Shown in pieces: positions 191-53,433 of a DNA stretch of 53,433 nucleotides. The translations under genes were made by a program, and so were the position numbers. Position 1 is the stretch's first letter. Each line of letters begins with the position of its first letter. Under the pieces are notes generated by a model that did not search any database, was not told the DNA's origin, and was given only the letters and a program-made list of their open reading frames with translations. Source of the DNA: Rudanella paleaurantiibacter (GTDB lineage Bacteria; Bacteroidota; Bacteroidia; Cytophagales; Spirosomataceae); the NCBI RefSeq assembly GCF_009184635.1, contig NZ_WELI01000018.1, positions 1 to 53,433 on the forward strand, written 5' to 3'.

Positions 191-3100
191 TTGCCTGTGC
201 ATCGTATCTGGTCTATAGCGCTCTGGCTTCTGTTACAGCTCACCGCTGAGAGTCGAGCCCAAAACAGTCTGCGTTTTGAGCACCTGAACGTCAATCAGGG
301 GCTGTCGAACCACATCATCTACGCGATGATTCAGGACAGCAAGGGGTATCTGTGGTTTGCTACCGACAACGGCCTGAATAAGTACGACGGCTATACGCTG
401 ACCACCTACCACAAAAACCCCAACGACACCACCTCGCTGGTGGGCAATGCCGTGGTACGGCTGATGGAAGACCGGGAGGGTACAATCTGGATCGGAATGA
501 TGGGCCAGGGCATTTGCCGGTTCGATCGGCGGACGGAACGATTCACCAACTACCCTCCGAACTCCAAAACCCTCCAACAAGGCACCATTCACACGATGGG
601 CGAAGACCAGTACGGGTACCTGTGGGTGTCGAACGGGCGGGCCGAGTTACGCCGATTTGACAAAAAAACGGGCCAGTACTCGCGGTTCAACTACGCGACC
701 CTGCTGGTCAACAAAACACCAACCGGCCCGGCCGTCACGCCCGTTGTGCATTCCGTTTACTGCGACCGCCGGGGCACTGTGTGGGCCTGCACCGATAATG
801 GCCTGCACCGGCTGCAACCGAGCGCAACCGAAGGGCAGGCGCAACTGACCCACTACCGACACACCCCCACCAACCCGCGTAGCCTGAGCCATAATCGAGT
901 TTGGGAAATTTACGAAGACCCAGGCGGTACTTTGTGGGTCAGCACCGACAACGGCCTCAACCGACTCGACCCCAACACCCAAACCTTTACCCAGTACACG
1001 TACACCCAAAAAACCGAAGCTGCGGCCAATACGGTAATCAATCAGGGCTTTCGATACCTTACAAGCGACAGGCAAGGTTACCTCTGGATGGGCACGGGCA
1101 ACGACGGCCTGTTTCGGTTCGACCCGCGCGGAGGGCAGTTTACCCAATTCGTGCACGATCCGGTTGACCCAACGGGGCTTAGTAGCGATCATATCCGGGC
1201 GTTGCTCGTCGACCGGTCGGGGCTACTTTGGGTAGGCACCTACGGCGAAGGCATCGACAAAGCCAACCCCGCCCAGCTGCCGTTTCGGCACTACCGCCCC
1301 CTGCCCTATCGGCCCGAAACGCTCAGCTACAAGTTTGTGAGTGCTATTCTGGAAGACCGAACCGGCACCGTTTGGGTAGGAACCGGCCAGGGCCTCAACC
1401 GGCTCAACAAACGCACCGGCACCTTTACGCACTACTGGCACGACCCCGCCAACCCCCGCAGCCTGCCCAACCGAAACGTGGAGAGCCTCTTTGAAGACCG
1501 ACAGGGACGCTTGTGGGTCGCCAGCCGGGGGGTACTGGCACTGCTCGACTCGAAAACAGGCTTGTTTACCAACCTCACCCAAGATACCCTCGGCTACCCC
1601 GGTCTGGGTGGGCAGTCGCGCATTTTCACCATTTACCAGGATCGACAAGGCAGCCTTTGGCTGGGCACCGATATGGGGGCTAAACGCTTCGACCCGGCTA
1701 CCCGACAGGTGATTCACTACCCCTACGACCCGCAACGCACTGATGGCCTGAGCGACGGCTGGGTGCTGTCGATCCGGGAAGACCGGCAGGGTTATATCTG
1801 GATGGGAACCGGCAGTGTAGCCCTGAACCGACTCGACCCGAAAACAGGCGGCTTCAAACACTACCGACCCGACCGACAACGGCCCGGCAGCATCACGGCC
1901 GACGCCATTTCGGCCATTCTGGAAGATTCGCGGGGAGTGCTCTGGTTTGGCACTTCGGGCGGGGGGCTGTGCCGCTTCGATCCTAAAACCGAAACCTTCC
2001 GGGCGTTTACGCAACGCGACGGCTTGGCCGACAATTCAATTCTTGCCATTGAAGAGACCCCACAGGGTGATTTCTGGCTTGGTACCTCCAGGGGGCTCTC
2101 CCGGTTTTCGCCAACCCGCCTGACGTTTACCAACTACGACGCCAACGACGGCTTGCAACGCTACGGTTTTCGGGCAGCCCACTGCCGGGGTCGCGACGGA
2201 ACCCTGTATTTCGGCGGAGACGACGGATTCACAGCCTTCGATCCGGGTGGGCTGTCCATCAACCTATACACTCCCCCGGTAGTAGTCACGCAGATTAAAT
2301 TATTCGACAAAGCCATTGCGGGACAAGGCGGCACCCAAACACTCGACCTGAACTACGACGAGAATTTTCTTTCGTTCGATTTCGCGGCTCTCGATTTTCA
2401 CAACCCGTCGAAAAACCGGTATGCCTATCAGCTGGTCGGGCTCGAACCCAACTGGGTGTACAGTGGTACCCGGCGGTACGTTAATTACACCAATCTAGCT
2501 CCCGGCACCTACACATTTCGGGTCAAAGGGTCGAATAACGATGGGGTCTGGAACGAAAGCGGTACGTCGATCCAGATTGTGATTCGGCCTCCCTGGTGGC
2601 AAACAACCCTTTTTCGACTGTTGGCGGGGGGCAGCCTCATCGCGTTGCTGGTCTTCGGCATCAGGCTCTACACCAAAGCCCGGCTGCGTCGGCAACAGCA
2701 AGACATCACCCGCATAATTCGCACGCAGGAAACCGAGCGTCGGCGGCTGGCGGCTGACCTCCACGACGACCTTGGCGGGACACTGGCTACCGTCCGTCGG
2801 CGGTTGTCCGACATTCGGCAGCGGCTTCGCGACGTGGAGGCCGCCCGCGAAATCGACGCCCTTGAACCCCTCATTCAGAAAAGCAGCCACGACCTCCGGC
2901 GCATCGCCCACAACCTGATGCCACCCGAGTTTGAACGCATCGGCCTGCGCTACGCCCTACAGCAACTGGTGGAGAGCCAACCGGCCCAACCAACCCGTTT
3001 TTCGTTTCTGGTGGCTGGTCAGGTTCGGAGTTTGCAACTCGAGACCGAGCTTAACATATACCGCATTGTGTCGGAACTGGTACAGAACGTACATAAGCAT

Positions 3101-3388
3101 GCTCAGGCCCGGCAGGCGGCCGTTCAATTGCTTTATTACGATGATTATCTGAGCGTTACAGTCGAAGACGACGGTTTGGGTAGCCGAGCCGCAAAAACGG
3201 AGAACCCGCAGGTAGGAATTGGGCTAAAAAGTAGTAGTTTACGGGCTGAATACATCGGGGCTAAGCTGTGGCGCGAAGCAAGTGAACAGGGTACGCTGGT
3301 GGTTCTCGATGTACCTTACACAACCGTACCGCATGTTGCCGTCCGAGCCGACCCGAATTTTGCTGATCGACGACCATCACCTGTTTAA
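191..3388 (+). CDS. Ligand-propeller sensor histidine kinase (HisKA_3 type)
   Basis: Membrane sensor kinase of a two-component system paired with the response regulator that overlaps its 3' end. A signal peptide (about residues 1-23, ending near AESRAQ) is followed by a long series of two-component regulator propeller repeats (about 30-690, recurring GxLWxGTxxGLxRxD). A Y_Y_Y domain (about 743-803), one membrane helix (about 805-825), a HisKA_3 dimerisation region (phospho-acceptor His about 858 in DLHDDLGG) and a HATPase domain (ELVQNVHKHA, EDDGLG, GIGLKSS) follow. It lacks a fused receiver and AraC domain, so it is a classical kinase, not a hybrid one-protein system. The start is TTG at 191 or GTG at 197; no in-frame ATG lies upstream and either start preserves the signal peptide. 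The ligand is unknown; relatives often sense polysaccharides or envelope state. Confidence 0.93.
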   Translation: MPVHRIWSIALWLLLQLTAESRAQNSLRFEHLNVNQGLSNHIIYAMIQDSKGYLWFATDNGLNKYDGYTLTTYHKNPNDTTSLVGNAVVRLMEDREGTIWIGMMGQGICRFDRRTERFTNYPPNSKTLQQGTIHTMGEDQYGYLWVSNGRAELRRFDKKTGQYSRFNYATLLVNKTPTGPAVTPVVHSVYCDRRGTVWACTDNGLHRLQPSATEGQAQLTHYRHTPTNPRSLSHNRVWEIYEDPGGTLWVSTDNGLNRLDPNTQTFTQYTYTQKTEAAANTVINQGFRYLTSDRQGYLWMGTGNDGLFRFDPRGGQFTQFVHDPVDPTGLSSDHIRALLVDRSGLLWVGTYGEGIDKANPAQLPFRHYRPLPYRPETLSYKFVSAILEDRTGTVWVGTGQGLNRLNKRTGTFTHYWHDPANPRSLPNRNVESLFEDRQGRLWVASRGVLALLDSKTGLFTNLTQDTLGYPGLGGQSRIFTIYQDRQGSLWLGTDMGAKRFDPATRQVIHYPYDPQRTDGLSDGWVLSIREDRQGYIWMGTGSVALNRLDPKTGGFKHYRPDRQRPGSITADAISAILEDSRGVLWFGTSGGGLCRFDPKTETFRAFTQRDGLADNSILAIEETPQGDFWLGTSRGLSRFSPTRLTFTNYDANDGLQRYGFRAAHCRGRDGTLYFGGDDGFTAFDPGGLSINLYTPPVVVTQIKLFDKAIAGQGGTQTLDLNYDENFLSFDFAALDFHNPSKNRYAYQLVGLEPNWVYSGTRRYVNYTNLAPGTYTFRVKGSNNDGVWNESGTSIQIVIRPPWWQTTLFRLLAGGSLIALLVFGIRLYTKARLRRQQQDITRIIRTQETERRRLAADLHDDLGGTLATVRRRLSDIRQRLRDVEAAREIDALEPLIQKSSHDLRRIAHNLMPPEFERIGLRYALQQLVESQPAQPTRFSFLVAGQVRSLQLETELNIYRIVSELVQNVHKHAQARQAAVQLLYYDDYLSVTVEDDGLGSRAAKTENPQVGIGLKSSSLRAEYIGAKLWREASEQGTLVVLDVPYTTVPHVAVRADPNFADRRPSPV

Positions 3389-3977
3389 CGATGGCCTGAA
3401 GAGTCTGCTGGATGAACAGCCGGGCCTGCACGTTTGCGGGCAGGTGTTTAACCCGGCCGAGGCTTTACCCGCTATTCAGCGGACCTCGCCCCACCTGATT
3501 TTGCTCGATGCCAATTTACAGGGCACCAATGGTATCGACCTGGCCCGTACCATTCTGAGCAGCTTCGCCCTCGTTCGGATTCTGATGCTGACGATGTACA
3601 ATCAGCCCAAACTGGTTGAAGAGGCCCGGCGGGCAGGGTTGCACGGTTACCTGCTCAAAGATGCCACCACAGCCGAACTGATGCGCGGTATCCGGGCGGT
3701 ACTGGAAGGGGGCACCTACTTCGATCCTAACCTGACCCCGCAGGCACCGCCTGCCAGCAGCACGTTTGACGATGACTTTGCCCGGCGGCTCAACCTTACC
3801 TTTCGCGAGGTCGAGATTATTCGATTGATCCGGCAGGGGCTAAACAACGAACAGATTGCCGAGCATCTGCACGTGAGTTACGAGACCGTCAAGACCCACC
3901 GCAAAAACATTCACTTCAAACTGGGCATCAGCAAAATAACCGACCTGATTCAGTTCGCTATTCGGCACGGGTTATGA
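3333..3977 (+). CDS. NarL/FixJ-type response regulator (receiver plus LuxR HTH)
   Basis: Cytoplasmic DNA-binding partner of the preceding kinase. The receiver domain has the acidic pair in IDDHH (residues 13-14), the phospho-acceptor Asp59 in LLDANL and the conserved Lys in YLLKDAT. A C-terminal LuxR-type helix-turn-helix follows (LTFREVEIIRLI, NNEQIAEHL, YETVKTHRKNI). I chose ATG 3333 because the receiver begins almost at once. It lies 56 bases inside the kinase gene, so the pair is translationally overlapped. ATGs at 3282 and 3309 are in frame but would add residues without family homology. Target genes are unknown; the adjacent surface-protein operon is convergent and not obviously controlled. 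Confidence 0.92.
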   Translation: MLPSEPTRILLIDDHHLFNDGLKSLLDEQPGLHVCGQVFNPAEALPAIQRTSPHLILLDANLQGTNGIDLARTILSSFALVRILMLTMYNQPKLVEEARRAGLHGYLLKDATTAELMRGIRAVLEGGTYFDPNLTPQAPPASSTFDDDFARRLNLTFREVEIIRLIRQGLNNEQIAEHLHVSYETVKTHRKNIHFKLGISKITDLIQFAIRHGL

Positions 3978-3995
3978 GAATGGAAAGTCACGTAT

Positions 3996-5174
3996 TTACT
4001 TTTTTAGCTTTCTGACTGCCCGTTTCAGCTCATCGAGTTCTGCCCGCTGCTGTCGGTTATTTTTTTCGAGTTGAATGGTGTAAAGGGTCAGTTCCTCTAT
4101 CTTCTCCAGCAAGGTAGCCGTAAGTTTGGCTACATCGGCTCCCTCCCGAGCAACCTCCTGCGCTGAGGGCACCCCCGGTAAGTGACCATGCTGTTGTGTG
4201 TAAGCCTCTACCTGCGCTAATGACCGCAACCGATACCCCGGTGCAAATACCTTATCGGCCCATTGGCTGGCATCACCAATGCTGATCCGGTATCGGGCCA
4301 TAACGGTCTCGCCCTGCTCGTTGACCGTCAGAAATTGGTCAGTTGCGCCATGACGCAGGTTAGGGTTACTCAGGTGGCTAAATTTGATGGTACCCCGGTT
4401 GCGGAGATTGATAATGCCCCGAACATCAAGTGGAAACTGAGGGGAGTCAGTCCCGATGCCAACAGCCATGCTCGTGTTCGTCGGATCGCCCAGTACGATG
4501 GCGTTAGAAACAGCCACACGGGCATTAGCACCGATGGCAGCTGCGTTGGTGAGACTATTGCTGACAACATCGGCAGCATAACCAATCAATGTATTTAGAT
4601 TGCCTGTACTGTTGTTGATTCCGGCAGTCCATCCCACGAAAGTGTTTGAACTACCCGTACCCGTAGCACTGCCGCCATAGCCTGCTTTAAATCCCAGAAA
4701 AGTATTTCTCGCACCATTCACACCTTCCTGACCCGCTTGAGTGCCTACCATCGTATTCTCAGAGCCGGTTTGATTTTTCAAACCAGCACTTGCACCCAGA
4801 AAGATGTTTGAAGTTCCGGTAGTATTAGCCCACCCTGCATAGGAACCTAAAAATGAATTAACCCCTCCTGTATTATTACGTCCTACATAAGACCCGATAA
4901 AGGTATTATCGTTAGCAGATGTGTTACCTTCACCAGCAAATGCACCGATAAACGTGTTATTATTTCCTGTAGAAATATTCAGACCTGTATTACGGCCGAT
5001 AAAGGTGTTTTGTTGACCTGCACCTACAGAGATATTATTTCCGCTGTTGATACCTAAAAATAGGTTACTACTCCCTGTTATGTGCAGTACTCGGTTACCA
5101 CCAAAACTAATTTGTTGGGCCGCTAACGGCTCGTTAGTAAGCGAAAGAAAAAAGACAAGCAGATACTTTCTCAT
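3996..5174 (-). CDS. Secreted head-repeat (TMF-family-like) surface or tail-fibre protein
   Basis: A signal peptide (MRKYLLVFFLSL, ending near LAAQQ) precedes about 14 short repeats of the type GNNNTFIGxxAG (residues about 25-235). These resemble the left-handed head repeats of trimeric autotransporter adhesins and phage tail fibres. A linker (GIGTDSPQFPLDV) leads to a C-terminal segment with APGYRLRSLAQVE, HLPGVPSAQEV and a final coiled coil (about 350-392). That segment is found at the end of many Bacteroidota TMF/tail-fibre-like proteins and probably drives trimerisation. The gene begins 3 bases after the stop of the subtilisin-like protease, so the two are co-transcribed. The protein is probably exported; no type IX sorting domain is apparent. 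Confidence 0.8.
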   Translation of the reverse strand: MRKYLLVFFLSLTNEPLAAQQISFGGNRVLHITGSSNLFLGINSGNNISVGAGQQNTFIGRNTGLNISTGNNNTFIGAFAGEGNTSANDNTFIGSYVGRNNTGGVNSFLGSYAGWANTTGTSNIFLGASAGLKNQTGSENTMVGTQAGQEGVNGARNTFLGFKAGYGGSATGTGSSNTFVGWTAGINNSTGNLNTLIGYAADVVSNSLTNAAAIGANARVAVSNAIVLGDPTNTSMAVGIGTDSPQFPLDVRGIINLRNRGTIKFSHLSNPNLRHGATDQFLTVNEQGETVMARYRISIGDASQWADKVFAPGYRLRSLAQVEAYTQQHGHLPGVPSAQEVAREGADVAKLTATLLEKIEELTLYTIQLEKNNRQQRAELDELKRAVRKLKK

Positions 5175-5177
5175 CGG

Positions 5178-6620
5178 TCAGTTATTATTGATGTTCAGTA
5201 CTGAACTGGTGGTTGAAAGATCAAGGGTGCCGTTGATGTTAAGTGTATTCCTAACGGGGTACGTCCCACTTGGCACGGTGACAGTATGCCCGGCCTGAAT
5301 AACCGGGTTCGTGTGTTGCGAGGGTGCCTGATAGGTCCAGTTACTGCCTGTCCAGGAGCCACTGGCAGTAGAGTAAACGGTTGCGGCCCAGTTTACGGCA
5401 TTGAACGCATTGATACGGCCCGCGCCCAACTGCCCGATATAATTGGGGTTCTGAGCGTTGATGTTATCAGCAGTTGCTTTGATGCCAGCTTCTACCTGGG
5501 TTCGGTTCATCGTCGGATTAACCGATAGCATCAGCCCAGCCAGGCTGGCGACCAACGGAGATGCCATTGAGGTGCCACCAATAAGACCGTATGTGTTGTT
5601 AAGCAACGTACTTAGAATAGCACTACCTGGCGCGGCAATGTCAATCCAGCTACCGAAATTGGAAAAAAAGCTACGCACGTCGGCTATATCCGTGCTTGCT
5701 ACTGAAATTACGTTATCGTATGCAGCCGGGTAGTTAAACGAACTTGCTGCATCATTTCCAGCAGAAGCTACCAAGACGCAACCCCGAGAAGCAGCGTAAT
5801 TGATCACGTCCTGATTGCTTTGGCTAAAGGTTGGCGAACCCCAAGACATATTGATAACCCGTGCGCCATTGTCAGCGGCCCATCTTACGCCTTTATACGC
5901 CTGTATCAAACGCCCCTGATTATCGGCAATCTTAACAGGCATTACTTTTATACTGAAGCCTAGTGACGCAATGCCTCTGTTATTGTCTGTTGTGGCTGAA
6001 ACGATGCCGGCCACATGAGTTCCATGATCGTCGTCAGACCGGTCGGGGTTGGGGTCGTTGTCATCATAAACCACATCACGTCCGGCAACCAGATTGGCGG
6101 CTAAATCAACGTGAGAAGTGGCAACACCATCATCCGTAACGGCCACCACTATGGCTCCACTTCCACGCGTAATATCCCACGCCCGTATGGCGTTAATAAT
6201 TTCCAGATTATACTGTCCAACAAAATAACCGTTTGGAGGTGTGTAATCATTCGGGACATAGACCTTACGATCAACCGGAACCCGTTCGGCGTATTCAACG
6301 GCAGGGTCCTGAAGGAGTTTTGATATAACCTCTTGAACCTGTTCTGGTAAAAGGAATTCAATTTTGTAAATTCGCTGTAATCGCTCTGAATTAGGCGTGT
6401 AGAATGGCTTTTCAATTTTCGAAGCCGACTTGTTTCCCAACAAGGCCTGAATAAATGACAATTCACCTCGTTTATTAAGCGTTTCGCTTTTTCCAGCATC
6501 ATGTATAGTGATGTTATCTCTGAGCTTAATATAGATCTGTCCTCTGGCGTAGCTTGAGTCAGCGATTTGCCCAAACCCTAAAACCGGTAAAAGGCAAAAA
6601 CAGGTAAAGATTAGTCTCAT
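5178..6620 (-). CDS. Secreted S8-family subtilisin-like serine protease
   Basis: A signal peptide (MRLIFTCFCLLPVLGFGQ) is followed by a propeptide-like region (about 20-115) and a peptidase S8 domain. Catalytic residues are Asp163 (VTDDGV), His199 (DHGTHVAG) and Ser351 (GGTSMASP), with oxyanion Asn289 (ASAGND). After the catalytic domain there is a short beta-rich tail (about 415-480) ending in an asparagine run, with no recognisable type IX CTD. It is the first gene of a two-gene operon with the head-repeat protein, and an exact -7 promoter match sits 31 bases upstream. The pairing suggests that the protease could process its neighbour or other exported proteins, which is inference. Confidence 0.92.
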   Translation of the reverse strand: MRLIFTCFCLLPVLGFGQIADSSYARGQIYIKLRDNITIHDAGKSETLNKRGELSFIQALLGNKSASKIEKPFYTPNSERLQRIYKIEFLLPEQVQEVISKLLQDPAVEYAERVPVDRKVYVPNDYTPPNGYFVGQYNLEIINAIRAWDITRGSGAIVVAVTDDGVATSHVDLAANLVAGRDVVYDDNDPNPDRSDDDHGTHVAGIVSATTDNNRGIASLGFSIKVMPVKIADNQGRLIQAYKGVRWAADNGARVINMSWGSPTFSQSNQDVINYAASRGCVLVASAGNDAASSFNYPAAYDNVISVASTDIADVRSFFSNFGSWIDIAAPGSAILSTLLNNTYGLIGGTSMASPLVASLAGLMLSVNPTMNRTQVEAGIKATADNINAQNPNYIGQLGAGRINAFNAVNWAATVYSTASGSWTGSNWTYQAPSQHTNPVIQAGHTVTVPSGTYPVRNTLNINGTLDLSTTSSVLNINNN

Positions 6621-48325: not shown

Positions 48326-48364
48326 GACGCGTGGGGTTTTGGTAGACCCCACGCGTCTTTTTTT
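48326..48364 (+). terminator. Strong intrinsic terminator after the haloperoxidase-like gene
   Basis: GACGCGTGGGG and CCCCACGCGTC form an 11-base perfect stem (loop of 10) followed by TTTTTTT. It isolates the downstream four-gene operon transcriptionally. Confidence 0.93.
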
Positions 48365-48461: not shown

Positions 48462-49673
48462 TTGGCTCTCACACCTATCTTCCATGACATTGACGACACC
48501 ATCCGTCAGCAAATAAAGACAGCCACCACCGAAATTATAGTCAACGTACCTTGGTTTACAGATGAGTCATTGTTCAATGAATTAGTTGCGAAAGCCCGCG
48601 TTGGAGTTGCTGTATCTATTGGCATAGAAGATGACCAAATCAACAGAGGGGCCGCTATAAACCATAATCAACTGGCACAGATCGGCGGTTGGGTTTATTG
48701 GCACAATGCCGGTAATAAAGGAGGCCTGAACCACGAAAAGTACTGCATCATTGACCGCTGTAGGGTGCTGTTTGGTAGCTACAATTGGACGTATCGGGCT
48801 GCCACTCATAACCGCGAAAGCATCCTCATGATGGAGGATGCCCAAATGGCCGAACAATACTTCCTGCGTTTTCTGGAAATGACTCAACTACCTACGGTTC
48901 GTTGTGTTGGGCCAACACCACCCATTGCTGAGGCTAAGAGCAGGTCGGTGATCGATGTCTCTTTTTTCCTCAAAGCCGAAATCCTAGTGTTGGAAGCAGA
49001 AGTTACCCAACTCGAAACTGAAAAGGCAGACCTCGAACAACGGCTGGAGTACACAGCCAATCAGATTCAGATGGCGTTACATACGCTGCTAGTAGAGAAA
49101 CTGAACCTTGAAACCCAACTAGCGGCAAAACGTGCCAAAGAAACGGATAAAGCCGCTGACCGCCAGAAAGCAGACAAGCAACAACAACGACTTGAGGAAG
49201 CAGAGGAAACTTTTCGACGGGTAGCAGAGCGGCAGCAAATACTTGATATGCCCGTGGACGAAGCTTTACTGAAAAAACTCTATCGTGAAGCCTGCATGCT
49301 AGCCCATCCCGATAAGTTTATGGATACGCCCGAAAAACAAGAGAGAGCCAACAACCTAATGGCACAGATAGCCGATGCGTACCGTAACAAAGATCTCGAC
49401 ACGGTACGGGCTATCTGGCAGCGGTTGCAAGATGGGACAGCCTTTGGGTTTGACTGGAACACCCCCCGCAACGCTTCCGTCTTGAACCAGATACGAGGAA
49501 CGCTACAAGCCCGAAAAGATGAACTAACGGCTACTATCCATCGACTTCAACAGTCATTTATATACACCATCATTACCCAATATCCCGATTTGAGCGAATA
49601 TATTGCCTCCCAACGACAACAGCTACAACAAGACATCGCTATACTTCGCCAATCGCTATCTGCCCAGCCATGA
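48462..49673 (+). CDS. PLD-family nuclease-like protein fused through a coiled coil to a J-domain
   Basis: First gene of the four-gene module. The N-terminal 140 residues form a single phospholipase-D-type domain with an intact HKD motif (His91-x-Lys93-x4-Asp98 in NHEKYCIID) followed by FGSYNWTYRA. Single-HKD proteins such as Nuc and BfiI act as dimers on DNA. A long coiled coil (about 170-258) leads to a J-domain-like segment with the HPD motif at 282-284 (REACMLAHPDKF, NLMAQIADAYRNKD), suggesting DnaK recruitment. A C-terminal coiled coil (about 340-400) ends the protein. The start is probably TTG 48462, since no in-frame ATG precedes the domain. The stop overlaps the VWA gene's ATG (ATGA). 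Confidence 0.8.
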   Translation: MALTPIFHDIDDTIRQQIKTATTEIIVNVPWFTDESLFNELVAKARVGVAVSIGIEDDQINRGAAINHNQLAQIGGWVYWHNAGNKGGLNHEKYCIIDRCRVLFGSYNWTYRAATHNRESILMMEDAQMAEQYFLRFLEMTQLPTVRCVGPTPPIAEAKSRSVIDVSFFLKAEILVLEAEVTQLETEKADLEQRLEYTANQIQMALHTLLVEKLNLETQLAAKRAKETDKAADRQKADKQQQRLEEAEETFRRVAERQQILDMPVDEALLKKLYREACMLAHPDKFMDTPEKQERANNLMAQIADAYRNKDLDTVRAIWQRLQDGTAFGFDWNTPRNASVLNQIRGTLQARKDELTATIHRLQQSFIYTIITQYPDLSEYIASQRQQLQQDIAILRQSLSAQP

Positions 49674-50596
49674 GTGACTTAATTTACACCGGCAATCGGC
49701 TGCCCTCCAACCACTTACTTCAGTTCGCCGATATGCTGGCGAAAGCGTCCAGCCCAACCGTTAAACCCCGTCCATACACAGCCCGCGTGTCGCGCACCAC
49801 GCCCACGGCATTTATGTTTCTGCTCGACCAATCGGGTAGTATGGACAAGGAAGTGACCGTGAAGGGGCAAACCGTGAGCAAAGCGACCTTGTTGGCCAAT
49901 TCGGTCAACGACTTGCTCAATCAACTCATTTCGGAATGCCGACGCGAAGGCGAATACCGCAATTATATCGACGTATGTGTGATTGGCTACGGAGCCGATA
50001 ACGATGCAACCGCCAAATATGCCTGGCAAGGAAATCTGGAAGGGCAAAGCATGGTCACGATTCAGGCCCTGAAAGATAATGCTGTAGAACGGCAGGGAAC
50101 CAAAGGTAAGTGGATTTCGCCTAAAGCTGGTGGCCTTACCCCCATGAGGCAGGCCCTCGACCTGGCTCACGATACGCTGGTGCAGTGGCTGGCGAGCCAT
50201 GCTGGCAAAGACATCTACCCGCCCGTTGTCATCAACATCACCGACGGAGTAGCTACCGATGCCGATGCGGCCGGACTGATTGCAGCCGCCCGTAAACTAA
50301 GAAACCTCCGCACTGTCGACGGCAACGTACTGTTATACAACGTTCATCTGACCGCCGGGCATGAAGAGCCATTCCTATTCCCCTGCCAAAAAGAGGAACT
50401 ACCCGAGGACGAGTACGCATACCTGCTGTTTGACATGAGTAGCGATTTGCCTGCTCTGTACAATGCGCCGATTGCGAAAATTACGAACCGTGATGCCAAT
50501 CCGTCCTATACCGCCATGGCCCTGAACGCCAACCCCATTCAGCTTGTTCAACTGCTCAACATTGGTACCAGTGTATCTCGACGCCAACACGTCTGA
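49670..50596 (+). CDS. VWA-domain protein, TerY-like
   Basis: 308 residues made mostly of one von Willebrand factor A domain. The MIDAS is complete: DQSGSMD (Asp53, Ser55, Ser57), GGLTPMRQAL (Thr) and NITDGVATDADAAG (Asp). Length and arrangement match TerY-type VWA proteins, which occur with PP2C and kinase genes in TerY-P systems. It has no signal peptide, so it acts in the cytoplasm. It begins inside the stop of the PLD-J gene (4-base overlap) and overlaps the phosphatase gene by about 26 bases, indicating coupled translation. Confidence 0.88.
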   Translation: MSDLIYTGNRLPSNHLLQFADMLAKASSPTVKPRPYTARVSRTTPTAFMFLLDQSGSMDKEVTVKGQTVSKATLLANSVNDLLNQLISECRREGEYRNYIDVCVIGYGADNDATAKYAWQGNLEGQSMVTIQALKDNAVERQGTKGKWISPKAGGLTPMRQALDLAHDTLVQWLASHAGKDIYPPVVINITDGVATDADAAGLIAAARKLRNLRTVDGNVLLYNVHLTAGHEEPFLFPCQKEELPEDEYAYLLFDMSSDLPALYNAPIAKITNRDANPSYTAMALNANPIQLVQLLNIGTSVSRRQHV

Positions 50597-51422
50597 CCCC
50601 GGCTGGCAATCTGTTTGGCAGAGTGTAGCAAAACCTGATGGCGATTATGTCCCCCACAATCAGGATGCGGCTCACCCAGTGCGTTGGTTTCTGAGTGATG
50701 GGGCTGGCGGCACAGGCTTTTTTGCCGCCGACTGGGCCCGGCACCTTTGTGAGCACCTGCCCGCCAAACCATTTCAGACCAAAGAGGCTGTTACGGAATG
50801 GTTTGAGAAATTGCGTGTGCCATTTTTCAACGCCAAACGCTCAGAAGCCGCACAATCTTTTTCCGATATTCTGGATGACTACGATCGCGAAGGCTCCTCG
50901 GCAACTTTACTCGCTGTATGGCCAATTGCCAATAAGCAGATACAGGTACTACACTATGGCGACAGTGCGGCTTTTCTGCTCGACAGACAAGGCCACCTGA
51001 AACAACGTACTACGGCCCTAATAGACTTTACCGAGCCTCCTTGGCTGTTGCACTCCAACGAGAGCCTTTTGCCCGAACACCTGCATCTGAACATCTGGCC
51101 CGTGGCCGAAGGCGATACGCTGCTGCTGGCCTCAGATGCACTGGCTCAATGGCTTCTAATCCAGTTTACTTTGCGCGAACCGGCTCTGCAACCCGAACTG
51201 GATGCCGTGTTGGCTACACCCTACGGGCTGGGTAATCAGATTATCTATTGCCAGCAACAGCACGAACCGGCCCTTACATTACCCGACCTGCTGCATCACT
51301 TGGCTGAGATGTGCGCAACCGAAGCCGCCTTCTGCACCTTTACCACCAATCTATACCAACGCGGCCAATTGGCCCTCGACGACTATACCCTACGCCTATG
51401 TTTGCGAACACCGACCTCATAG
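50571..51422 (+). CDS. PP2C-like serine/threonine phosphatase
   Basis: A PP2C fold with metal-binding motifs FLSDGAGGTGF (SDGxGG), SSATLLAVW, VLHYGDSAAFLLD (GDS) and GDTLLLASDALAQWL (SDG equivalent is SDA). It presumably reverses phosphorylation by the downstream kinase. No ATG is available at the 5' end: GTG 50571 gives the shortest plausible N-terminus, with TTG 50544 and 50562 as alternatives. All overlap the VWA gene. Its 3' end overlaps the kinase start by 25 bases. Confidence 0.85.
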   Translation: MYLDANTSDPGWQSVWQSVAKPDGDYVPHNQDAAHPVRWFLSDGAGGTGFFAADWARHLCEHLPAKPFQTKEAVTEWFEKLRVPFFNAKRSEAAQSFSDILDDYDREGSSATLLAVWPIANKQIQVLHYGDSAAFLLDRQGHLKQRTTALIDFTEPPWLLHSNESLLPEHLHLNIWPVAEGDTLLLASDALAQWLLIQFTLREPALQPELDAVLATPYGLGNQIIYCQQQHEPALTLPDLLHHLAEMCATEAAFCTFTTNLYQRGQLALDDYTLRLCLRTPTS

Positions 51423-53380
51423 AAGCCGTAGCCAACCGGCATTTCTCCTCCCTGACACACATGGAGCCGGTTTGGGATGAACAGTACGACGAGCCCTGGT
51501 ACAGCACAGGCAAAATGGGCATTGTTTTTAAACTTGCGGACCCTGAAACAGGCCAACGCTTTGCCTTAAAGGTGTTTAAAGAGCGCGACACCGAGCGCGA
51601 AGAGCGCCTACGGCAACTTGCCGAACAGTTAGCGGCTTATCCTTCTCCTTACTGGGTATCGTACCGGTTTCTGCCCGACGAGTTACGAATTGAGTCGACA
51701 TTTGGGGAAGCCGAAAGGGCCTGTGTACTGCTCATGGATTGGATTGAAGGCCAAACGCTGGGGCAGTTTGTGCGCGATGCCTGCCAACAGCACGACCGGG
51801 CTACCCTCTACAAACTAACCTATGCATTTGACCAAATGGCCCTGTGGCTGCTGGCCAACCCCTTTGCCCACGGCGACCTTAAACACGACAATATTCTGAT
51901 CCGGCCCAATGGCGTACCGGCACTGGTGGATTATGATGGGATGTTCTTTCCCGTTTTCACCAACCTGAAAGCCCTGGAACTGGGCACCCCCGACTACCAG
52001 CACCCTAAACGAAACCTCAACCACTACGGCCCGTATCTGGACGATTTTAGCCTACTCGTTATCTCGTTGAGCCTGTATGCCCTGGCCCACCACCCGTCTC
52101 TCTACGCCGAGTACAACACGGGCGAAAACCTAATTCTGACCCAGACTAACTTTGAGCAACCTCGCCAAAGCGCCTTGCTCAGTACCTTACAGGAACTGGA
52201 TGTTCCCGGTCTGCGGCAGCGCCTTGCCCTCCTCGACTATGCCCTCGCTCTCCCTCCTCAATCCGTGCCGGGGCTCGACGTACTGCTGAAAGATAAATTC
52301 ACCCACTACGCCACCCTGCAAACGTTAACTTACCCACCAACCCCTGATCTGATTCCGTACCGAAAGGGAAACAAATGGGGCTTCTGCGACCGGAATAAGA
52401 AAATTGTGATTGAGTGTGTTTATGATGATGCAGGACCATTCGAGGAGGTACTGGCAAGGGTGAAACAAGGTGGGAAATATGGCTTTATTGATCAAACTGG
52501 TAAGCAAGTGGTTCCGTTTCAATATGAGTATGCGTCACATTTCTCTGAAGGGCTGGCAAAGGTGAAGCAGTATAGGCAATGGGGATTTGTTGATAAAATG
52601 GGGCGACTAGTCATTCGTGACCGGTTTGATGATGCTTGTGATTTCTCCGAGGGGATGGCGAAGGTAAAACAGTATGGAAAATGGGGTTTTATTGATAGAA
52701 CGGGCCAACTTGTAATTCCATATCAGTTTGAGGATGTTTCGAGTTTCTCTGACAGTTTGGCGAGGATGCAACAGTATAGATATGGGGGATATGGCTACAT
52801 TAATAAAACAGGTCAACTGGTTATTCCCTGTCAGTTTGTGCTTGCTTGGAGGTTCTCCGAAGGGATGGCAAGTGTGCGTCTGCATGAGAAGCTAGACTTA
52901 AAGTGGGGATTTATTGATAAAACGGGTCAACTGGTTATTCCCTGTCAGTTCAATAATGCTGGTTATTTCTCAGAAGGGTTGGCCAGGGTAGAAGAATATA
53001 GAAAGTATGGCTTTGATACGAAGTATGGCTTTATAAATAATACGGGAGAACTGGTTATTCCCTATCAGTTTAGCCATGCTGGCGATTTCTCAGAAGGGTT
53101 AGCATGGGTACAAAAAGAAGGGCAGTATGGTTTTATTAACAAGGTTGGACAATTGATTATCCCATATAAATTTGGGGGTGCTTCAAATTATTCCAATGGT
53201 CTGGCTAGAGTCGGACGGCATTTAAAAGTTGGTTATATAGACCGAGAAGGCAACCAATACTGGGAGGAAGAGGAAAGTCAAGAAGCTGAACCAAGTTCGT
53301 TCGGTATGTCTTTGCCCCCTTTCGTGAGCCAGTTTGCACTGGAGTTTAAGCCGCCTGTCGGTACTCGACAGGTGTCATGA
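51398..53380 (+). CDS. Protein kinase with C-terminal WG repeats, 3' end altered by an IS element
   Basis: An N-terminal kinase-like domain has TGKMGIVF (short glycine loop), Lys58 in FALKVFK and catalytic HGDLKHDNILI (Asp160, Asn165; HGD instead of HRD). VDYDGMFFPVF stands in place of DFG. From about residue 322 nine WG repeats follow (WGFCD, YGFID, WGFVD, WGFID, YGYIN, WGFID, YGFIN, YGFIN, VGYID), each near 35-40 residues and linked by VIPxQFxxAxxFSEGLAxV. These probably form a binding platform. ATG 51398 begins inside the phosphatase gene. The last roughly 23 residues (from MSLPPF) appear to be read from the IS3 element, so the native C-terminus is lost or changed. The repeat part is visibly more AT-rich than the kinase part. 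Confidence 0.85.
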   Translation: MFANTDLIEAVANRHFSSLTHMEPVWDEQYDEPWYSTGKMGIVFKLADPETGQRFALKVFKERDTEREERLRQLAEQLAAYPSPYWVSYRFLPDELRIESTFGEAERACVLLMDWIEGQTLGQFVRDACQQHDRATLYKLTYAFDQMALWLLANPFAHGDLKHDNILIRPNGVPALVDYDGMFFPVFTNLKALELGTPDYQHPKRNLNHYGPYLDDFSLLVISLSLYALAHHPSLYAEYNTGENLILTQTNFEQPRQSALLSTLQELDVPGLRQRLALLDYALALPPQSVPGLDVLLKDKFTHYATLQTLTYPPTPDLIPYRKGNKWGFCDRNKKIVIECVYDDAGPFEEVLARVKQGGKYGFIDQTGKQVVPFQYEYASHFSEGLAKVKQYRQWGFVDKMGRLVIRDRFDDACDFSEGMAKVKQYGKWGFIDRTGQLVIPYQFEDVSSFSDSLARMQQYRYGGYGYINKTGQLVIPCQFVLAWRFSEGMASVRLHEKLDLKWGFIDKTGQLVIPCQFNNAGYFSEGLARVEEYRKYGFDTKYGFINNTGELVIPYQFSHAGDFSEGLAWVQKEGQYGFINKVGQLIIPYKFGGASNYSNGLARVGRHLKVGYIDREGNQYWEEEESQEAEPSSFGMSLPPFVSQFALEFKPPVGTRQVS

Positions 53381-53433
53381 ACCTCAAGGCCTGGTGAGGG
53401 CGTTCCGTGTTGTATTCGACCAACCATTCATCC
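53307..53433 (-). mobile_element. IS3-family insertion sequence, right end (runs off the window)
   Basis: The transposase gene end on the minus strand and a TG-initiated stretch at about 53307 (TGTCTTTGCCCCC) suggest that the element's terminal repeat lies inside the 3' end of the kinase frame. The boundary is an estimate (53300-53345), as the other terminus and target duplication are outside the window. Confidence 0.5.
53346..53433 (-). CDS. IS3-family transposase (orfB), C-terminal fragment
   Basis: On the minus strand the frame ends DEWLVEYNTERPHQAL, RFMTPVEYRQAA, stop at 53346-53348. YNxxRPHxxLxxxTPxEY is the hallmark C-terminus of IS3-family integrase-core transposases. Only 28 codons are in the window; the rest lies to the right. 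It overlaps the annotated kinase frame on the opposite strand. Confidence 0.88.
   Translation of the reverse strand, partial: DEWLVEYNTERPHQALRFMTPVEYRQAA

Follow-up and report, generated by a model that had tools for sequence, protein, structure and literature searches.

TerY-P (as defined in PADLOC) is a triad of adjacent genes for a VWA protein, a PP2C phosphatase and a protein kinase, the anti-phage role of which is reported in a summary of Gao et al. 2020 (PMC7699616), in PMC11090510 and, for Pseudomonas, in PMC10889362. We analysed a four-gene operon at positions 48462-53380 of the window, i.e. the whole stretch of 53,433 nucleotides (positions 1-53,433 of contig NZ_WELI01000018.1) from Rudanella paleaurantiibacter. 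It encodes a homologous set of adjacent VWA, PP2C and kinase-domain proteins and, as a fourth gene, a protein combining a PLD domain, a coiled coil and a J-domain (hereafter PLD-J). The initial annotation called the triad TerY-P-like and described such triads as proposed to signal stress or phage attack; the PADLOC models do match, and "proposed" understates the case, the anti-phage role of TerY-P being already supported by experiments. The three triad genes are therefore of a known kind, and the novelty of the locus lies in the J protein, which we find to belong with one clade of TerY-P-like triads.

Other described systems share features with this locus. In type II/III-A CoCoNuTs, TerY-P also occurs as a module beside other nucleases (PMC11090510), whereas no McrB/McrC-type or cnu genes were seen in the window, where the putative effector is PLD-J. 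The PLD part shares the HKD motif and fold of Nuc, NucT, MitoPLD/Zucchini and DrmC, but is fused to a coiled coil and a J-domain; no other DISARM gene (DrmA/DrmB, methylase) appeared among the matches listed for the 14 window proteins scanned, the far side of the operon lying beyond the contig. For phage sensing, bNACHT25 depends on DnaJ and on the binding of DnaJ to DnaK (PMC12169576), a precedent for the J-dependent sensing proposed below; bNACHT25 uses the host's own DnaJ, whereas the window operon encodes a dedicated J protein and no NACHT. Finally, the VMAP/TRADD-N/EAD conflict systems described by Aravind and colleagues (PMC7159879, PMC8195603) have short adaptors and superstructure-forming repeats as proposed sensors (for TRADD-N systems, in PMC8195603), and vWA-PP2C-kinase and DnaJ themes occur in them, kinase-PP2C-vWA and, separately, HSP70/DnaJ being found around GAP1-N2 GTPases (PMC7159879), but in the available parts of these papers no J hub is joined to TerY-P or to the adaptors described below. 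We recognised no description of a J-domain partner of TerY-P, or of adaptor-recogniser pairs, in the full-text literature covered, which does not include Anantharaman 2012 and Gao 2020.

Composition of the operon

The four genes lie where the initial annotation placed them:

48462..49673, + strand: gene 1, PLD/coiled-coil/J protein (TTG start)
49670..50596, + strand: gene 2, TerY-like VWA protein with MIDAS (PADLOC TerY, alignment)
50571..51422 (GTG start), or from TTG 50544, + strand: gene 3, PP2C-like phosphatase (PADLOC, Pfam)
51398..53380, + strand: gene 4, Ser/Thr kinase with WG repeats (ATG start; native part to about 53306)
48326..48357, + strand: intrinsic terminator of the gene upstream, preceding the operon (stem and T run)
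53307..53433, - strand: end of an IS3-like insertion sequence (100% identical copies in the genome)

According to the open reading frame calls, the genes overlap by 4, 26 and 25 bases (the second overlap being 53 bases if gene 3 starts at TTG 50544), which, behind a terminator with a 14-pair stem (9 G-C pairs) and a T run, suggests one transcription unit. The terminator, initially described as strong, does have this stem and T run, but the scan gave four sites, compared with 5.9 on average after shuffling, and stem length alone distinguishes this one.

Gene 2 matches PADLOC TerY (7.7e-53; Pfam VWA, about 0.005) and its MIDAS is intact, the metal residues (DQSGS 53-57, T157 and D192) being invariant in 15 rows. 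Gene 3 is PP2C-like (PADLOC PP2C, 4.2e-13; Pfam PP2C_2, 2.8e-4). Gene 4 comprises a kinase domain (residues ~37-300; Pfam Pkinase, 2.1e-8) and WG repeats (~326-635; Pfam WG_beta_rep, 1.5e-95 in 8 stretches), which by eye amount to eight full repeats and a partial ninth. All three assignments, including the nine repeats, agree with the initial annotation. On inspection by eye, the PP2C and kinase motifs appear complete. PADLOC STK_OB covers the kinase part of gene 4 only (6.2e-44; residues 52-300, profile positions 55-297 of 562), and neither an OB-fold nor a zinc ribbon was found at the kinase C-terminus, where Pfam reports the WG repeats. Because these replace the OB part, the triad is TerY-P-like rather than canonical TerY-P, from which it also differs by its fourth gene and by a VWA protein that falls in a separate clade.

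Gene 1 comprises a PLD domain (~1-145) with a single HKD motif (H91/K93/D98), a coiled-coil hairpin (~166-259), a J-domain (~267-323) with HPD at residues 282-284, and C-terminal helices. The Pfam DnaJ match (2e-4, 21.8 bits) is under the cut-off of 27.8, and the J-domain is predicted from the following lines of evidence. First, the family profile of the J part matches the auxilin J-domain among solved chains (2.9e-6). Second, HPD is intact in 24/24 aligned J rows. Third, the predicted structure has helices around HPD as in the J fold. The fusion of a single-HKD PLD to a J-domain that had been read from the sequence is thus borne out by both motifs and by profile and fold matches.

The PLD domain (Pfam PLDc_2, 1.1e-20) has the one intact HKD (motif rows) and the Nuc-like fold (fold search) of single-HKD PLD nucleases, and PADLOC DrmC matches it weakly (9.8e-11). 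It could alternatively be a kinase-docking scaffold instead of a nuclease, as FAM83 domains dock CK1, with which the Pfam name SACK1 agrees. We consider this quite improbable, even though SACK1 matches gene 1 (2.6e-10), a kinase is encoded in the same operon and FAM83 chains come first by E-value among the best 50 rows of a Foldseek search with the AlphaFold model of PLD-J (mean predicted local distance difference test 84.3; predicted template modelling score 0.60). In these same 50 rows, Nuc (1byr) has the highest template modelling score by target (0.82, root-mean-square deviation 2.7); in the profile match to solved chains, MitoPLD/Zucchini (6.5e-22) and Nuc (2.9e-18), followed by NucT, beat FAM83B (2e-14); HKD and GSxN are complete in 19/19 PLD-J rows; and the PLD occurs at kinase-less loci while several kinase-linked J proteins are devoid of it.

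Within gene 1, the coiled-coil/J part is constant and the PLD optional. The PLD is present in the homologues of the window, L032-L038, L041 and L057, and absent from those of L039, L040, L042-L048 and L071 (L numbers denote loci fetched from the surveyed genomes and G numbers the genomes themselves, G000 being that of the window). All ten J genes found without a triad in the window's family have it (10/10), and several at class level do not (L154-L158).

Linkage of the J gene and the triad

Using J and VWA profiles on 200 genomes of the window's family, we found 30 strong J places (E < 1e-60, then a gap down to 1e-20) and 19 strong VWA places (E < 1e-110) plus five weaker ones; the distribution is patchy (31/200 genomes). 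Seventeen of the 19 strong VWAs adjoin a J gene (16 directly, the one in G001 about 5 kb off), and the remaining two (G096, G104) are in fragmented genomes with J and PP2C on another contig; by contrast, none of the five weaker TerY VWAs has a J gene nearby (all open reading frames of the fetched regions were searched). All four genes are in the neighbourhood at 15 of the 17 J-linked VWAs, including L035 (VWA and PP2C broken), L034 (kinase cut by a contig end) and L046 (kinase on the opposite strand); the set of L047 is interrupted by the end of its contig. Of the remaining 13 J places, three have PP2C alone next to them (G096, G104 and G087, the last without any VWA match) and ten lack the triad. 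In a tree of 32 VWA rows, a branch with a support of 97/98 separates the J-linked VWAs from the others; this tree omits the divergent L153, and an earlier one including it and a wrong L071 open reading frame gave 70/55.

Outside the family, VWA matches occurred in 16 of 395 phylum genomes, all of the weaker kind, and no J gene was found in the 12 of these regions that were fetched (L131-L142, all open reading frames searched). At class level, two genomes have VWA, PP2C and kinase beside J (L148 and L153, the VWA and PP2C of the latter being divergent and assigned partly by eye and position). The four genes thus stay together in the family and in two class genomes, and across phyla our data do not show it. 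Searches of viral contigs and phage records found no VWA.

These data indicate that the J gene belongs with this TerY-P-like clade. That a triad should merely have landed beside an unrelated J gene is barely credible: J-less TerY-P triads do exist, one of them in the window's own genome (G000:C23, L125:7642-10857), where the kinase of the triad is of the OB type (STK_OB match of 1.6e-106, reaching profile position 453/562) and no J gene was found beside it, but the adjacency at 17/19 places lies within one VWA clade, the genes overlap in the window, and the association recurs although gene order and PLD content vary.

L035 (G038:C26) is a third J-type copy in G038, a genome of the window's genus, and is decaying. 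L131 and L070 have a VWA-PP2C-kinase set followed by a stand-alone PLD gene of ~190 amino acids and a second kinase, without J, i.e. another PLD-linked TerY-P arrangement. A lone DnaJ-like protein of ~390 amino acids, with a coiled-coil/J part like that of the gene 1 family, occurs on Enterobacter and Salmonella plasmids (L161, L162). These plasmid matches and three on viral contigs (L143-L145) were set apart as J proteins without a recognisable partner. Also dismissed were phylum-wide J matches of E 1e-8 to ~1e-24, which have no triad gene in the fetched regions (other J/coiled-coil proteins), the contig match L002, which by eye lies inside an ABC-type ATPase, plasmid matches covering the PLD part of gene 1 alone, and TerY on two cyanobacterial plasmids, where the triad has no J.

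Exchangeable recognisers

The kinase C-terminus varies between loci, and WG belongs, as judged from the sequences, to a set of exchangeable modules. At the 15 four-gene loci it is WG in ten, absent in three (L042, L043, L048), beta-rich by eye in one (L057) and a UG/DRT-type reverse transcriptase in one (L041 in G001, 2848-5364; RVT_1, 4.6e-7; PADLOC RT_UG34, 8.2e-27), this last fusion sitting with VWA, PP2C and PLD-J. In the two split genomes, the proteins of G096 and G104 are close in the kinase domain (95.7% identity), VWA (93.7%), PLD-J (89.4%) and PP2C (88.5%), but their kinase C-termini are unrelated (24.6%), being TPR in G096 (1.4e-24) and a W-rich repeat without Pfam match in G104. The window and G038 proteins share 78.7% identity in the kinase domain and 48.6% in the WG part. 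A W-rich repeat (~WDWxxLSxNxxLPWS) without Pfam match occurs on both kinase and adaptor proteins (L126:112-1956, L102:708-2048, L156:5975-7294). The fixed PLD and WG composition of the initial annotation therefore stands for the intact motifs and the recurring quartet, not for the PLD, which is optional, nor for the WG.

Most J genes without a triad have partner genes with a common N-terminus of ~35 residues (consensus ~NQIAITNKLL), which we call the adaptor, and differing bodies. An adaptor profile made from seven partners additionally recovered L050 and L053, and found none in the triad loci of the same set; when 24 triad loci were rechecked, the single match had E 0.23. In a fresh test on 13 further J loci out of 295 class-level genomes, two had VWA-PP2C-kinase, nine an adaptor gene adjoining J (eight at E < 0.01; L152 at 0.39, accepted by eye) and two neither; adaptor matches inside unrelated proteins (L159 8397-11024, L155 7096-8031) were discarded. 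With a 19-row profile (E < 1e-6), adaptors were found in 20/23 genomes with triad-less J and 0/19 genomes with triad-linked J, a contrast that is partly circular because 16 of the 20 genomes supplied profile rows. The four that supplied none are G127, G109, G193 and G181, the adaptors of the last two lying near contig ends, as predicted by their cut PLD-J loci. Strong adaptors occur in 5/198 class genomes, all five being J genomes that supplied rows.

The adaptor bodies are WG (L049, L054, L066), TPR (L059, L154, L158, L159), a PQQ-type propeller (L151), FISUMP (L150), a gyrase-A propeller (L101) and LRR beneath Pfam cut-offs (L152, L155); those without Pfam match have W-repeats (L102, L156), look LRR-like by eye (L157) or have no such likeness noted (L058). 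The partners of G127 and G073 illustrate the variability, their PLD-J proteins being 98.0% and their WG partners 56.9% identical. Of the 15 viral-contig PLD loci, the top 5 were annotated, and two of these have PLD-J, in one case with a WG gene (adaptor E 0.038), in the other with an LRR-like gene (by eye). Because these relatives pair J with an adaptor recogniser without kinase, VWA or PP2C, the J protein and its recogniser look like the core of the system, and TerY-P like one control layer. According to the J tree, a single switch between triad and adaptor partners would suffice.

As regards the end of gene 4, the last 127 bases of the window (53307-53433) are 100% identical over 118-127 bases to five other sites of the genome, and their minus strand reads as the C-terminus of an IS3-type transposase. 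These bases being an insertion-sequence end, the gene 4 open reading frame closes with ~24 non-native residues. No WG repeat seems lost, since the nearest homologue of the kinase, from the same genus, stops at the equivalent point (NQYWED); for the same reason we dropped the idea that the insertion sequence truncates the kinase. The window ends with its contig, and the assembly break is probably due to this insertion-sequence end with its five identical matches.

Defence context and proposed pathway

Some relatives of the operon have defence genes as neighbours. In G110, the quartet is inside a BREX operon (brxA, brxB, brxC, a 236-aa gene, pglX, PLD-J, VWA, PP2C, kinase, DUF4407, Schlafen/AlbA, pglZ, brxL). 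In G705, the genes ahead of it encode an AlbA protein, a type I restriction subunit (4.3e-43) and, as the third, an Argonaute (2e-261), and DUF4407 comes after it. PADLOC families are near 4/6 adaptor loci (HEC-01A/B at L155, PDC-S15 at L154, PDC-S11 at L150 and PDC-S32 at L152) and were not found near L156 and L158. A defence-gene setting is seen at related loci, not among the ten upstream proteins scanned in the window itself; taken as a whole, the initial interpretation is partly supported.

What the locus is composed of, the intactness of its motifs, the conserved linkage, the exchange of recognisers and, for some relatives, the proximity of defence genes are established. From these we propose, at about an even chance, that the operon is a candidate chaperone-gated anti-phage module with exchangeable sensors, in which a TerY-P-like anti-phage signalling triad is linked to a J-domain hub that carries a nuclease head. 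First, the WG part of the kinase would bind a protein born from, or changed by, infection. Second, the kinase, the PP2C and the metal-binding VWA would form a reversible switch setting the threshold. Third, this switch would release or assemble the coiled-coil J protein, the HPD of which would recruit the host DnaK; DnaK might then remodel the complex or, alternatively, the chaperone load might itself be the signal. Fourth, the PLD head, as a dimeric single-HKD nuclease, would cut nucleic acid.

Six observations weigh against this proposal. The PLD cannot be the sole effector, because many J proteins have none. PP2C and kinase were not found beside the J-linked VWA of L044. The adaptor is missing at 2/11 class-level J loci without triad (L149, and L160, a weak homologue). 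The WG part does not evolve faster everywhere, L039 and L040 sharing 92.1% identity in the kinase and 85.8% in WG. The loci with defence neighbours were hand-picked, with no random control, and the scan covered a small part of the triad loci. Lastly, no PADLOC match was obtained for the ten upstream proteins of the window, its far side being beyond the contig.

This last result, the constancy of the J-domain with an optional PLD, and the tie of Ter genes to chemical stress (PMC11090510) would fit a switch for proteostasis or chemical stress, in which the J protein and its recogniser direct DnaK to damaged clients, with the kinase/phosphatase pair tuning the response. Such a switch appears unlikely, though, in view of the predicted nuclease head with its HKD intact in every PLD-J row, the BREX and Argonaute neighbours of relatives, the exchange of recognisers between near-relatives and the patchy distribution. 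Returning to the chaperone-gated module, a broader version of it is conceivable, to which we give slightly less than an even chance: an undescribed modular immune family sensing through the Hsp70 cycle, where a J/coiled-coil hub, often with a PLD head, would receive an exchangeable recogniser (WG, TPR, LRR-like, PQQ- or gyrase-type propeller, FISUMP, W-repeat or reverse transcriptase) via an adaptor or the C-terminus of a TerY-P kinase. The window operon itself amounts to a variant of TerY-P, and the J-hub family at large may be more than this.

To our knowledge, the trigger and the effector of TerY-P are still open questions. In a variant that has a nuclease head of its own, a link to chaperones and a recogniser that can be exchanged, both can be addressed by simple deletions, and the two-gene adaptor pairs are even easier to test than the four-gene operon. 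If the J-domain does sense chaperone load, the system would have built in what bNACHT25 achieves by using the host DnaJ.

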